This document shows, one piece after another, positions 19,585 through 25,755 of a DNA stretch of 64,000 nucleotides (positions within the stretch are counted from its first letter, which is position 1; each line of letters begins with the position of its first letter). The translations under genes were made by a program, and so were the position numbers. Location of the stretch: assembly GCF_005871165.1 (NCBI RefSeq), contig NZ_SWKP01000003.1:372001-436000 (forward strand), read 5' to 3'. The notes below the pieces were generated by a model. That model saw only the letters and a program-made list of their open reading frames with translations. It ran no database searches and had not been told where the DNA came from. The stretch comes from Maricaulis alexandrii. Lineage in GTDB: Bacteria > Pseudomonadota > Alphaproteobacteria > Caulobacterales > Maricaulaceae.

Positions 19585-22500
19585 CTAGACCGTCTCGACC
19601 GAGGCGACGCCATCCACGCCTTTCAGGGCGGCCTGCAGGGCGCTGTCGGCACTGTGGCGTCCGGGCAGGCGCAGCTCGACCTCACCGCCATCGGACAGGG
19701 GCAGGAGCAGGTCGACAATGGCACTGAGCGAGGCATCGGCCCGCCGGTCGGCCCGCTCCATGCGCGCCTGGATGCGTTCCAGCGCCGTGGCATCATCAAG
19801 CCGGACCCGCAACCGGTCCGCAGAGACCTTCATGTCGAGCGGTTCGAGCCGGTCGGCAAAGAAGGAGATCTGCTCGTCCCGCTCATCGACCCGGCAATTG
19901 ACCAGGATGGCCTGCCCGCTTTCGAGCAAATCGCGTGATGTGCGGAGCAGTTCCGGCGCGATGAAGACCTCGAACTCCCCGGTCGGATCGGACAGGGTCA
20001 CCCAGGCAAACCGCTCGCCGGACTTGTTGGAGACGCGCTCCTGACGGCGCCGGACCATGCCGGACAGGCGCAGCGCCGTGGCGCCATCGGCGACCCGGGC
20101 CGGCGCTTCGGCATGGAACACCACGCCGCGGCCGGCGAGGTGCTCGGTCATGTCGTCCAGCGGGTGGCCCGACAGATAGAAGCCAATCGCCGACAGCTCA
20201 TTGTCGAGCCGTTCCGTGGCGGTCCAGGGATCGGGCTCGGGCAGGCGCGGCCGCGCCAGGGCGATCTCTTCACCCCCGCCCCCGCCGAACAGGCTGGCCT
20301 GGGCACTGTCACGCTGTTGTGCGGCGTGTTGCGCCATGGATATCAGCGTTTCCGCCGAGGCCAGCACGCGGGCCCGGTCCGGATCGAGCGTGTCGAAAGC
20401 ACCGGCGCGGGCCAGGTTCTCGAAGGTCCGCTTGTTGATATGCTTTGGATCCACACGTTCAGCAAAGTCATACAAGTCCTTGTAAGGACCGTTTGAATTG
20501 CGTTCGGCGACAATGTGTTCCATGGCGGAGAAACCGACATTGCGGATCGCGCCGAGGGCGAAGCGGACCGTCCCCTCCTCGACCGAGAAATCCGCCTGGG
20601 ACGCGTTGACATCCGGCGGACGCACCTCGATGCCCATGCGCCGGATTTCCTGATGGAAAGCGGCCAGCTTGTCCGTATTCGCCGCATCGAGCGACATCAG
20701 GGCCGCCATCAGCTCGACCGGGTAATTGGCCTTGAGATAGGCGGTGCGATAGGCGATCGCGGCATAGGCGGCGGCGTGGGACTTGTTGAAGCCGTAGCCG
20801 GCAAATTCGGCCACAAGTTCGAAGATGTAAGACGCCTTCTCGCGGCTGACCCCTTTCTTCTCCGCGCCTTCCAGGAAACGGACTTTCTGCTTGTCCATCT
20901 CCTCTTTCTTCTTCTTGCCCATGGCCCGGCGCAGCAGGTCGGCTTCCCCGAGGGAGTAGCCGGACAGGATCTGCGCGATCTGCATCACCTGTTCCTGGTA
21001 GATGATGACGCCGTAGGTTTCCGACAGCACGCCTTCCAGATCGGGATGCAGGCAATCCACTTCGGCGCGGCCGAATTTCCGGTCGACATAGACGTCGATA
21101 TTCTTCATCGGACCCGGACGATACAGGGAGATAAGGGCGATCAAATCCTCGATCGCGTCGGGCTTCATCTTCTTCAGCGTGTCCCGCATGCCCGAGGATT
21201 CCAGCTGGAAAACCCCGATGGCGTGACCCGATTGGAGCAGTTCGAAAGTCGGCTTGTCGTCGAAATCAATCCCTTCAATATCAGGGACTTCCTTGCCGGC
21301 TGAGGCGATATAGCCGAGCGCCCGGGCGATCACGGTGAGGGTTTTAAGCCCGAGGAAATCGAACTTCACCAGGCCGGCGGGCTCCACCCATTTCATGTTG
21401 AATTGGGTGGCGGGAATATCCGATCGCGGATCGCGATAGAGCGGCACAAGTTCGGAGAGTTTGCGGTCGCCGATGACGACGCCGGCGGCGTGTGTGGAGG
21501 CGTTCCGGAAAAAGCCTTCCAGCTTGAGCGCAATGGTCAGGAGACTGTCGACCGCATCATCCTCGGCCCGCATCTCCTTGAGCCGCGGCTCCATGTCCAG
21601 GGCCTGGGCCAGGGTAACCGGATTGGCGGGATTGGAAGGGACCAGCTTGGCCAGCTTGTCCACCAGGCCGAAAGGCAATTGCAGGACCCGGCCGGTATCG
21701 CGCACCACGGCGCGCGCCTGCAGGGTTCCGAACGTGATGATCTGCGCCACCCGGTCATGCCCATAGCGTTCCTGCACATAACGGATCACCTCGCCGCGAC
21801 GCTCCTGGCAGAAGTCGACGTCGAAGTCCGGCATGGACACGCGTTCCGGGTTCAAGAAGCGTTCGAACAGAAGGCCGAAACGCAGCGGATCCAGATCGGT
21901 GATGGTCAGCGAATAGGCCACCAGCGAGCCGGCACCCGACCCCCGGCCCGGCCCGACCGGAATGTCATGGTTCTTGGCCCACTGGATGAAGTCCGACACG
22001 ATCAGGAAATAGCCGGGAAAGCCCATTTCCTTGATGATGCCGAGCTCGAAATCGAGCCGCTCGCGATACTCCGCCTCCGGCGCAGCATTGGCCCCGGCTG
22101 CCAGGCGCTCGGTCAGCCCCTCATGCGCCCGCGCCACCAATTCCTCGGCCTCGTCCCGCCCGCCCTGGGTCGGGAAGCTGGGCAGGATCGGTTTGTGGGT
22201 GCGCACGCGATAGGCACAGCGTTGGGCAATCTCCAGGGTGTTGGCCAGCGCCTCCGGCAGATCGGCAAAGCGCTCGCTCATCTCCTGCGGTGTGGTGAGG
22301 TAATGGTCGGCCGTCACCTTGCGCCGGTCGGACACGGAGACAAAGGAGGATTGGGAAATGCACAGGAGCGCGTCATGCGCCTTGTGCATGGACGGATCCG
22401 GAAAATAGGCCTCATTCGTGGCCACCAGCGGCAAATCCCGCGCATAGGCCTGCTCGACCAGCCAGTCCTCGGCCTGAAGCTCCGTTTCCAGCCCGTGACG

Positions 22501-23031
22501 CTGCAGCTCGACATAGAGCCGGTCACCGAAATTCTCCTGAAGGCGGGACAGGGTCTTCTCCGCCTCCGGCAGGCGTCCGGTCGCGATCATCCGGTTGAGG
22601 ACGCCGTCCGGACCACCGGTCAGGCAGATCAGGCCTTCGGAATGCCCCAGCACGCTGGACAGCGGCACATGCGCCTCTTCCGACCCGTCGACATCGAGAA
22701 AGGCGGCGCTGGTCAGCGCCATCATGTTCTCATAGCCGGTGCGATCCTGGACCAGGAGGACGATCGTCCCCTCCGGTTCGGCGCGTTCGCCGGGATGCGG
22801 ATCGACCGTGCGCACCGAGAGCGTACAGCCGACGATCGGCTGGATCCCGGCACCGGCCATGACCTCGGAGAATTCCAGCGCCCCGAAGAGATTATTGGTG
22901 TCCGTCAGCGCGATGGCGGGCATGCCGTGGGTCTGGCAGGCAGAGACCATCTGGGGCATGCGGATCGCGCCTTCCAGGAGCGAATAGGGCGAGCGGACAC
23001 GCAGATGTACGAAAGGATGTGTCTGCGCCAT
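19585..23031 (-). CDS. dnaE: DNA polymerase III alpha subunit
   Basis: Replicative DNA polymerase catalytic subunit. The 1148-residue protein opens with the PHP domain ([17 protein letters not shown]). The polymerase core has [16 protein letters not shown] near residue 358 and the catalytic Asp cluster [13 protein letters not shown] near residue 400. The helix-hairpin-helix and OB domains lie in the C-terminal third. An AGGAG ribosome binding site precedes the ATG. The 140-base gap upstream separates it from a small SOS-type gene. Length and motifs fit the main DnaE1, not the mutagenic DnaE2/ImuC. Confidence 0.97.
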
Positions 23032-23171: not shown

Positions 23172-23267
23172 TCAGGCGGCGCCGAGAACCGATCCCCACA
23201 GAGTGATCATCCAAGCGAAACCGAGAATGGCGGTGGCGGCTGAGACATCTTGCAAAACACGGCGCAT
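23172..23267 (-). CDS. 31-residue SOS-controlled membrane protein, candidate SidA-type cell division inhibitor
   Basis: The sequence shows a 31-codon gene starting MRRVLQDVSAATAILGFAWM with a basic, then acidic N-terminus and one hydrophobic helix (about residues 9-30). It follows a strong ribosome binding site (GGGGAGGAA, then TT, then ATG) and a promoter overlapping a perfect GTTC-N7-GTTC box, the alphaproteobacterial LexA site. In Caulobacter, SidA is a 29-residue, LexA-controlled inner-membrane peptide that blocks division through FtsW/FtsN, and as I recall its gene also lies next to dnaE. Size, topology, control and position agree, so I infer a SidA-type protein. I cannot confirm residue-level homology, hence no gene symbol. 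Its stop is 140 bases before dnaE. Confidence 0.72.
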   Translation of the reverse strand: MRRVLQDVSAATAILGFAWMITLWGSVLGAA

Positions 23268-23311
23268 AACTTCCTCCCCGAAGTCCAGAAATCCGACGGA
23301 CAGGCTCGTCC

Positions 23312-23326
23312 GTTCTGTTTTTGTTC
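23312..23326. promoter_or_regulatory. LexA (SOS) box, GTTC-N7-GTTC
   Basis: GTTCTGTTTTTGTTC is an exact match to the direct-repeat SOS operator established for Caulobacter, Rhodobacter and other alphaproteobacteria. It overlaps the predicted -10 of the 31-residue membrane protein gene, so bound LexA would block RNA polymerase. It lies 45 bases upstream of that gene's ATG. I saw no second copy in the intergenic regions I read. Confidence 0.8.
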
Positions 23327-23351
23327 TATGGGTGAAAAAATCAGCCGTCAA
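23323..23351 (-). promoter_or_regulatory. Promoter of the SOS-type small gene
   Basis: On the minus strand, TTGACG (-35, 5 of 6 matches), a 17-base spacer and TAGAAC (-10, 4 of 6). The start site would be near 23316, giving a leader of about 49 bases. The -10 is overlapped by the LexA box, as expected for a repressed promoter. Confidence 0.65.
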
Positions 23352-23450
23352 GCGTAAAAGTTCCACCTTTGTTCCGTCCGCAATCATCGCGCAATTTAAT
23401 GAAACAGGGCTCAAGGCGGGTTCGGGATGGGATCAGGACGGGATCGGCTT

Positions 23451-23486
23451 GGGTTCGGGAGGGGTTTGGGATGGGTCTGGGACGGG
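23451..23486 (+). repeat. G-run array with G-quadruplex-forming pattern
   Basis: Seven runs of three or more G in 36 bases, separated by 1-3 bases, extending a looser array of GGG runs that starts near 23417. Four or more such runs with short loops is the standard sequence rule for a G-quadruplex. It lies on the plus strand in the gene-free stretch between lolD and the SOS-type small gene. Confidence 0.6.
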
Positions 23487-23534
23487 TCCCGGATCTGCGC
23501 CCGGCTCAAGGCCGGGCATCCGTCCGGGATGACA
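23483..23534. repeat. Intergenic palindromic repeat unit (BIME-like)
   Basis: Contains GGTCCCGGATCTGCGCCC, the 7-bp inverted repeat GCCCGGC-TCAAG-GCCGGGC (23499-23517), then a CCGGGATGAC end. Nearly the same block, including the ATCTACGCCCGGC...GCCGGGCATTCGTC...GGGATGAC order, recurs at 55706-55761, so this is a dispersed element of the genome. Confidence 0.65.
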
Positions 23535-23588
23535 AGTGAGTGGATTGGGGTGTGGGAACTGAAATATGTCCGTGCACACAATAAGCTC

Positions 23589-23680
23589 CGTCATCCCCGG
23601 CTTGTCCGGGGGACCTCACCTAGCCAGCCCACAGTTTCGCTCAGGTCCCCCGGACGCCCTGCGGGCACCGCGGGATGACG
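23589..23680. repeat. Long inverted repeat with GTCATCCC...GGGATGAC ends
   Basis: A perfect 13-bp inverted repeat (23604-23616 and 23643-23655, GTCCGGGGGACCT / AGGTCCCCCGGAC) separated by 26 bases and flanked by GTCATCCC and GGGATGAC. This is the layout of BIME-like intergenic repeats. The rest of the 23268-23735 gap holds the promoter/LexA site, the G-run array and the neighbouring repeat; I see no further gene. Confidence 0.7.
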
Positions 23681-23735
23681 GGTGCGTTTTTGGGAGAGAA
23701 ATGACCTGTCCTGCCCATCTCATGGGGAGGAAAAC

Positions 23736-24425
23736 CTATCCCGCTTCGTAGTCCGTCAGCACGCCATCCGCGAAAGTCACGACCCGGTCCATGCGGGAGG
23801 CGAGATCGTGGTTGTGGGTGGCGACCAGGGCGGCGGCACCGGCCTTTTTTACGGTGGCGCGGAAGGCGTCAAAGACGGTGGCGGACGTGTCCGGGTCGAG
23901 ATTGCCGGTGGGTTCGTCGGCCAGGAGGACGCGGGGGTCATTGGCCAGGGCGCGACCGATGGCGACGCGTTGTTGTTCACCGCCGGACAATTGGGAGGGC
24001 TGGTGGGAGGCGCGATCGGTCAGGCCGAGCATGGCGAGCAACTCGTCGGCGCGGGCGACGGCAGCGGCGCGTTTCACACCGGCGATGAGCTGGGGCAGGA
24101 CGATATTCTCGCGGGCATCGAATTCCGGCAGCAGATGGTGGAACTGGTAGACGAAGCCGATATCGCGGCGGCGGATCGCCGTGCGATCGCGATCCTTGAG
24201 CTGCGAGGTCGCCTGCCCTGCCACTTTCACTTCACCGGCATCGGGACGTTCCAGCAGACCGGCGGCATGCAAAAGCGAGGACTTGCCGGAACCGGACGGT
24301 CCGACCAGGCCGACAATCTCGCCGGGGTTCAGGACCAGGCTGGCCCCGCGCAGGACCGGCAGGGTCGCGGCCTCGGTGACATAGGTGCGCTCGATGGCGA
24401 CGAGTTCGAGGACGGGCTTACTCAT
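23736..24425 (-). CDS. lolD: Lipoprotein-releasing ABC transporter ATPase LolD
   Basis: Cytoplasmic ATPase of the LolCDE-type complex, which extracts outer-membrane lipoproteins from the inner membrane. The 229-residue protein has Walker [10 protein letters not shown], the ABC signature [16 protein letters not shown] and Walker [13 protein letters not shown]. It overlaps the preceding lolC by 8 bases. Confidence 0.95.
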
Positions 24426-25755
24426 AGCGCAGCGCCTCCACCGGATCGAGGCCGGAGGCCCGCAGGGCCGGCGGCAGGGTGACCAGGAGCGAGACGACCA
24501 GGCCGAAGATCGAGATGAACCCGACCTCGCCCCAGTCCAGCTTGGCCGGGATGCGGTAGAGATAATAGACGGACGGATCCCAGACCTGCGCCCCGGTGAC
24601 CCAGGTGATGAAGTCCTGGATCGGGCCGATATTCACCACAAAGAGAATGCCCAGAATGATGCCCGCCAGCGTGCCGGACAGGCCGATGGCGGCGCCGACG
24701 ATCAGGAAGACGCGCAGGACGGCGGCCCGGGTCGCGCCCATCGTGCGCAGGATGGCGATATCCCGGCTCTTGTTCTTCACCAGCATGACCAGGCCGGAAA
24801 TGATGTTCATGGCGGCAATCGCCACGACGATGGCGAGGATGAGCCGCATGGCGGTGCGCTCGAACTGGAGCGCGTTGAAGAAGGCCGGATTGAGCTGGGT
24901 GTAGTCGTAGACGGAGGCATTGTAGCCGGCGAGGTTCCGGACCGGCTCGAGGAAGGCGGTGGCCAGTTCCGGATTGTCGAGCCGGATATGGATCATGTCC
25001 GTCTCCTCGCCCCGCACGAAGAAGAGACGCCCCTGCTCCAGCGGCATGAAGGCGAGACTGTCATCGATCGTGGAGACCCCGGCGGCCAGGATGGCGCCGA
25101 CATAATAGGCTTTCTGCTGCGGCCGGGCCCCGAACACGGTCGGCGCAGCCCGTGCCGTGGTGAAAGTCACCCGGTCGCCGACATTGACGCCGAGACGGCG
25201 GGCCACACCCGTACCGAGCACGATCGTATCACCGCCATGATTGCCGACACCGAATTCGGTGAGATCGCCGAACATGAGACCGGTCGAGGAGGTCGGGGTC
25301 TGGTTGGTAATGACATCCAGCTGGCCCAGATCCTCCGGACTGATGCCGAGCACCTGGAGGAAGGTTTCCGACCGGTCCGAGGTCGCCATGACCTGGCCCT
25401 GGACCACCGGATCGGCGGAGTGGATGCCTGGCAGGGCTTCGATCTCGCGGACGAGATCCTCGATCCGCCCGGCCTCGACCTGGCGCGTATCCACATAAAC
25501 ATGCGGTTGGAAACCCAGCAATTGATTGAACAATTCCGCCCGGAAACCATTCATGATGGACATCACGGCGATCAGGCCGAGCACGGCCAGCGTGATGCCG
25601 GCAAAACTGATCGAGGCAATCAGGGCGACACCGCCATGCTTGCGCTTGGCCCGCAAATAGCGGAAGGCGAGCATGAATTCATACGGGCTGAACGGGTGTG
25701 CCCCGCCCGGCCCGCCGGTCTGTGCAGCGGTGTCAGCCTGTGCCGGTTCAGCCAT
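24418..25755 (-). CDS. lolC: Lipoprotein-releasing ABC transporter permease (LolC/E type)
   Basis: Inner-membrane permease partner of LolD. The 445-residue protein has the MacB-like layout of one N-terminal helix ([20 protein letters not shown]), a periplasmic domain of about 220 residues and three C-terminal helices, with [14 protein letters not shown] before the last two. A single permease gene is seen, so the complex may be a LolF-type homodimer, as is common in alphaproteobacteria. It overlaps both proS and lolD by 8 bases. Confidence 0.93.

Follow-up and report, generated by a model that had tools for sequence, protein, structure and literature searches.

What is encoded by the 31-codon frame that lies directly upstream of dnaE, behind a LexA-type operator, in Maricaulis alexandrii? 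In Caulobacter, the already known SidA is an inner-membrane protein of 29 residues with FtsW and FtsN as interaction partners (PMC4211646). Judging from its sequence, the small and easily overlooked gene considered here appears to encode a membrane peptide that would stop division while DNA damage is repaired. A preliminary description of this DNA had proposed a SidA-type inhibitor at this place, and we examined the locus, its relatives and the competing readings. Throughout, "the window" denotes the whole stretch of DNA that was analyzed (64,000 nucleotides), to which all coordinates refer (Table 1).

The frame, its promoter and its operators

The frame encodes MRRVLQDVSAATAILGFAWMITLWGSVLGAA (31 residues, read directly from the window sequence), which begins with MRR and continues into one hydrophobic helix. 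This layout matches the SidA pattern of ~29 residues with a single hydrophobic helix, and D7, F17 and W24 are the best-kept residues of the peptide in alignment A1. Both the 31-codon gene and its helix had been claimed in the preliminary description and were found in the sequence as described, though the helix is only moderately hydrophobic (best Kyte-Doolittle mean 1.67 over 17 residues). The ribosome binding site that it placed before the gene (23279-23271) is likewise present, and GGGAG or a close variant occurs as ribosome binding site across the genus alignment. The stop of the small gene and the start of dnaE, both on the minus strand, are separated by 140 nt, and the same-strand neighbors upstream include a proline–tRNA ligase gene in addition to those listed in Table 1. 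Between the operators and the lolD-like gene, the intergenic DNA (23418-23700) contains a stretch that by eye is degenerate and G-rich, and two copies of the CGGGATGAC type at 23525 and 23671.

Table 1 Features of the dnaE-upstream locus in the window, in order of position.
Feature	Position	Strand	Remarks
dnaE, DNA polymerase III alpha subunit	19585..23031	-	NF004226, 1460 bits; scanned without first codon
SidA-like gene	23172..23267	-	31 codons plus stop; ATG at 23267, stop 23172-23174
Ribosome binding site GGGGAGGAA	23271..23279	-	Read in window sequence
Hairpin, GC-rich, in presumed 5' leader	23295..23314		In leader insert common to the window and G063
LexA-type operator 1, GAACAAAAACAGAAC	23312..23326	-	Perfect GAAC-N7-GAAC, starts inside the -10
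Promoter TTGACG-N17-TAGAAC	23323..23351	-	TTGACG 23351-23346, 17 nt, TAGAAC 23328-23323
LexA-type operator 2, GAACAAAGGTGGAAC	23360..23374	-	Perfect GAAC-N7-GAAC, upstream of the -35
lolD-like ABC ATPase, upstream neighbor	23736..24425	-	Below curated LolD cut-off
lolC/E permease	24418..25755	-	TIGR02212, 402 bits

The promoter given in the preliminary description was read in the window sequence and is kept in the genus: an alignment of 16 genus upstream regions retained TTGA of the -35 in 16/16 and TTGAC in 15/16, and a stricter sigma-70 rule did not pick up the window promoter. The perfect GTTC-N7-GTTC box over the -10, also claimed there, was confirmed at 23326-23312 of the minus strand, so that a LexA-type operator over the promoter, a feature of SidA, is present at the window gene as a sequence match to GTTC-N7-GTTC. 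The interval given earlier covered this operator and missed a second perfect box, which lies 48 nt from the first, start to start. In the same 16 upstream regions, AGAACAAA-N4-GAAC is kept throughout (16/16) and the surrounding DNA varies freely. A second box was present 47-59 nt upstream in 7/9 genus loci checked, and box pairs 18 nt apart were seen in five g12 loci of family f3. The leader of one genus member, L038, is longer than that of the window and has different letters.

A GTTCN7GTTC consensus has been published for Caulobacter (PMC4211646). The window contains 4 such boxes against 1.46 expected, a mild excess (4/100 shuffles reach 4). In the whole genome there are 83, and the backward-read pattern occurs 41 times; such counts by themselves are weak evidence. 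In 18 stretches taken from the 83 genome boxes, mostly picked for AT-rich spacers, boxes were found before lexA (TIGR00498, 184 bits), ssb, a partial pcrA/uvrD-like helicase gene and an imuA-like gene (NF033429, 34 bits, below the cut-off of 150). The box of the imuA-like gene (L197:1325-1339; C8:325724 in the own genome) consists of the identical 15 letters as operator 1. Further perfect boxes of the own genome (L202, L189) have mraZ and a DivK-like response regulator gene, the latter recognized by eye, in their vicinity. They may be chance occurrences, because the genome contains the reversed pattern half as often as the box.

The 31-codon frame is real and under purifying selection. Its peptide is present in 17/17 genomes of the genus, the window's own counted, and pN/pS was 0.24 in frame, compared with 1.24 and 3.60 when the frame was shifted, among 16 of these genomes, all distinct at the DNA level, with the incomplete locus L037 left out. 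Variation in the same 16 sequences fell on 25/30 third and 6/30 second codon positions. The small frame is thus kept among relatives, a point on which the preliminary description had staked its proposal. A coincidence of a random open frame and a random operator would be compatible with the number of boxes in the window, which by itself exceeds chance only mildly; this account is contradicted by conservation, codon pattern, synteny and operator conservation, with the codon (pN/pS) test speaking strongly against it. Given the genus-wide presence of the peptide and its pN/pS, we take a chance frame to be ruled out and consider such a coincidence exceedingly improbable.

Relationship to SidA of Caulobacter

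Comparison with SidA requires an anchor in Caulobacter. In C. vibrioides DSM 9893 (L108), dnaE is immediately preceded by a gene for a 29-mer, with a GAAC-N7-GAAC box in front of it. This peptide reaches 72.4 bits with NF033228 (NCBIfam, cell division inhibitor SidA), well over the cut-off of 35, and the dnaE-upstream gene of this species is therefore SidA. This identification rests on NF033228; the opening eight letters of the Caulobacter peptide did not occur in the literature searched. The sidA gene is designated CCNA_02004 (PMC10769358) and dnaE of C. crescentus CC1926 (PMC1839093), in differing numberings, and no paper with both sidA and dnaE was found in the literature searched. The placement of sidA next to dnaE in the preliminary description is borne out by the C. 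vibrioides locus.

The window gene shares this position upstream of dnaE. Family models from Pfam and NCBIfam gave no match to its peptide; NF033228 gave none at E up to 10, short of the 35-bit SidA cut-off, and the best place of this model over the window's whole genome (12.3 bits) was not at this gene. Across 398 genomes of the order, NF033228 exceeded its cut-off in 42, all in f3, which we identify as Caulobacteraceae from its matches to named Caulobacter and Phenylobacterium records (e.g., L083/L132 and L081/L155).

Profile comparison gave a different picture. When two hand-assembled profiles were aligned with hhalign, one of 26 peptides from family f1 (A4) and one of 24 f3 or Caulobacteraceae peptides (A5), the score was 35.6 and the probability 96%. 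Four kinds of control reached at most 14.4: 42 hydrophobic FtsW windows (maximum 11.9), reversed sets (≤9.3), 40 column permutations (≤14.4) and 60 sets in which residues were shuffled within blocks so that the M-polar-helix layout was kept (maximum 14.3). The homology of the f1 and Caulobacteraceae peptides thus extends beyond helix composition. Because this score is joined by a shared locus, orientation and operator and by a nearly equal size, orthology is the simplest reading. Our data support the window gene as a putative divergent ortholog of Caulobacter sidA that may, like it, arrest division through FtsW/FtsN. The SidA-type identity put forward in the preliminary description thereby gains support from locus, orientation, helix, operator, size and profile score, with NF033228 missing the peptide.

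Caulobacter SidA resembles the window peptide in size (29 vs 31 aa), in its one helix, LexA-type operator and dnaE-upstream locus, and in homology at the profile level. In contrast to C. vibrioides SidA, the window peptide is not recognized by NF033228; it is 28% identical to the C. vibrioides peptide and carries W24 and a WGSVLG tail where Caulobacter SidA has CxVAxLVA. Unlike Caulobacter sidA, the window gene has two perfect operators, and the FtsW of the window genome, unlike that of Caulobacter, has Ile at the A31 site.

Distribution within the order and across the class

The A1 profile found the peptide in 89/91 f1 genomes at E up to 1 (86 of them with E below 1e-3), by a hand count in which not every locus was checked. 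At E up to 1 this profile lists 284/398 genomes of the order, many of them likely chance matches, and for this reason we relied on the list only at checked loci, the f1 hand count excepted. Directly upstream of dnaE and on the same strand, the small gene was present in 26/30 loci of a first search and 19/20 from a second. The single-sequence search (E up to 10) yielded weak matches, of which four (L025, L027, L029 and L030) had no adjoining dnaE and were dropped, and L065, also with no adjoining dnaE, was dropped from the tallies.

Searches started from dnaE in 30 loci of other families, with genomes picked by hand, recovered the small gene in 23/30: 17/17 in f3, 5/5 in f5 and 1/4 in f4, and it was not found before dnaE in 3/4 f4 and 4/4 f2 genomes examined (0/4 in f2). 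In one of the f4 genomes (L099), dnaE is preceded by a perfect GAAC-N7-GAAC box that no membrane frame follows. The four f2 genomes (L102, L103, L104 and L106) have a frame that by eye is lolD-like directly before dnaE, and no boxed peptide. A collection of named genomes showed the small gene upstream of dnaE in 75/80 loci (68 by a strict pattern, 7 by eye); two of the other five lack upstream room (L116, L185) and three lack the gene (L166, L178, L184).

A joint tally over both collections, which took loci with dnaE and at least 200 nt upstream, placed the peptide within 520 nt in 154/165 dnaE loci, some of which are the same genome from both collections (e.g., L092/L107, L062/L160 and L064/L180). 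Since the peptide call uses identity to peptides that come partly from the same loci, this figure is a tally and no independent test. The operator count is independent of that call: within 125 nt upstream, an operator with 0-1 mismatches was present at 154/154 peptide loci (115 perfect, 19 with at least 2 perfect operators), against a chance expectation that by our own arithmetic is ~4% of such windows at equal base composition. Genus member L038 counts as a miss in the tally; it keeps the gene and promoter, and ~1.3 kb of other DNA lies between the small gene and dnaE. In hhalign comparisons, the f5 set matched the f1 set (24.4) and a set from outside the order (26.1), and its score with the Caulobacteraceae set was at chance level (11.6). 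Taken together, locus, operator and profile indicate likely relatives in f1, f3, f5 and part of f4.

Relatives may also exist beyond the order. When 289 genomes of the class were searched with a profile, 10 finds resulted at E up to 0.01. Four are within the order, and one of these, from f2, is embedded in a 321-residue frame and probably a chance match. The six outside the order comprise four before dnaE, one at a contig break and one with no dnaE in reach. A scan of dnaE-upstream regions that was blind to peptide sequence covered 109 of the 146 outside-order genomes with a dnaE match, leaving out G404 (dnaE match at a contig end) and the 36 weakest dnaE matches; its rule was written after the first 29 of the 109 regions had been looked at. 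Perfect boxes in the right orientation occurred in 16/109 regions from 12 families, in all 16 cases followed by a membrane frame of 26-49 residues, and these positives fell mostly where dnaE is most like that of the window (11 among the first 29 regions and 5 among the remaining 80). Over 20 rounds of dinucleotide shuffling, a mean of 0.85 regions had a box and 0 had a box plus frame; control spacings of 5, 6, 8 or 9 gave 0-2 regions with one frame, at spacing 9; and boxes in the opposite orientation were present in 8/109 regions, 2 with a membrane frame.

A profile of 13 outside peptides, none of them found by the profile search, scored 32.4 against the f1 set and 24.7 against the Caulobacteraceae set, compared to maxima of 13.3 and 14.7 for the respective block-shuffled controls. 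A core of W/F-x-K-D-x-x-A-L recurs in the peptides, followed by the helix and often by a W near the helix end. In G415, one contig breaks off just past the boxed peptide gene and a second one a short way upstream of dnaE (L212/L269), and the two ends may adjoin. SidA seems to belong to an ancient family of dnaE-linked, LexA-controlled peptides, whose place upstream of dnaE probably dates from early in the Alphaproteobacteria.

The literature searched, a scope to which the original SidA paper (Modell 2011) does not belong, contained no report of SidA outside Caulobacter. Within that scope, two elements of our data seem to be new: putative divergent SidA relatives that escape NF033228 and precede dnaE in several of the order's families, and candidate LexA-boxed membrane peptides at the dnaE-upstream place in 12 further families of the class.

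Proposed role in the SOS response

Building on the frame, its conservation, operators, locus and homology to SidA, all of them read from sequence, we consider it very probable that the window gene is a divergent sidA ortholog that would be LexA-repressed and damage-induced, with a peptide that would hold the late divisome inactive. Under this model, LexA would repress the gene from one or two GTTC-N7-GTTC operators located across the promoter, and removal of LexA upon DNA damage would allow its transcription. The 31-residue peptide would then enter the inner membrane as one helix and may hold the late divisome (FtsW/FtsI/FtsN) inactive until the damage is repaired. We assign this division-inhibitor role to the window gene because of its putative orthology with SidA, whose overproduction is suppressed by changes in FtsW and FtsI, and the model for Caulobacter is that of an FtsW/I/N complex held in an inactive state (PMC4211646). 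In Caulobacter, F145 and A246 of FtsW are sites of suppressors acting on both SidA and DidA, and A31 is a SidA-specific suppressor site. A comparison of ten genomes showed F145 and A246 kept in the FtsW of the window genome; with Ile in place of A31, details of the contact may differ.

Two further accounts of the locus need to be weighed against SidA orthology. Peptides of the TisB/DinQ kind are small, have one helix and are LexA-controlled, features that the window peptide would have in common with them, and the window gene might accordingly encode an SOS-induced membrane peptide that strikes the membrane potential and not the divisome; given the orthology with SidA, we judge this unlikely. 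Selection at the protein level and conservation at the profile level also set the peptide apart from a LexA-controlled leader, in which the promoter would serve dnaE and the short frame would be a leader peptide or translation device tuning DnaE in the SOS response. At nearly all confirmed loci the small gene does precede dnaE on its strand, no terminator-like minus-strand site was found between them in the window, and L099 has its perfect box before dnaE but no such frame, all of which would suit a leader. However, the ortholog in Caulobacter is known to inhibit division in trans, and L038 keeps gene and promoter though dnaE is ~1.3 kb away, which makes a leader, in our estimate, slightly less likely still.

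We know of no named SOS division inhibitor in most Alphaproteobacteria. YneA of Bacillus and SosA of Staphylococcus, which are longer than the window peptide and have an extracellular domain, and SulA of E. coli, which is soluble and not a membrane peptide, are likewise SOS-induced division inhibitors. For YneA, an interaction with FtsW has been reported (PMC13396833), whereas SulA acts on FtsZ and is stated to have no wide conservation outside the gammaproteobacteria (PMC4211646). DidA of Caulobacter resembles the SidA kind as a small single-helix division inhibitor that is induced by DNA damage and has a late divisome target, but it has 71 aa, is under DriD and not LexA, binds FtsN and is encoded at another locus (PMC4211646).

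We lean, with some reserve, towards a broader view: LexA-controlled one-helix peptides for division arrest would form an alphaproteobacteria-wide family that has been located beside dnaE since before the orders split, and SidA would be its best-known member. Many lineages would then possess an unrecognized SOS division checkpoint, and the link to dnaE may itself be functional, through a shared SOS transcript or a coupled supply of polymerase and brake. In practice, the simple rule of reading the DNA before dnaE yields a candidate checkpoint gene where annotation may miss one, and the natural variants of the peptide constitute a set for mapping the FtsW/FtsN contact. The finding also raises the testable question of why a division brake stays beside the gene of the replicative polymerase.
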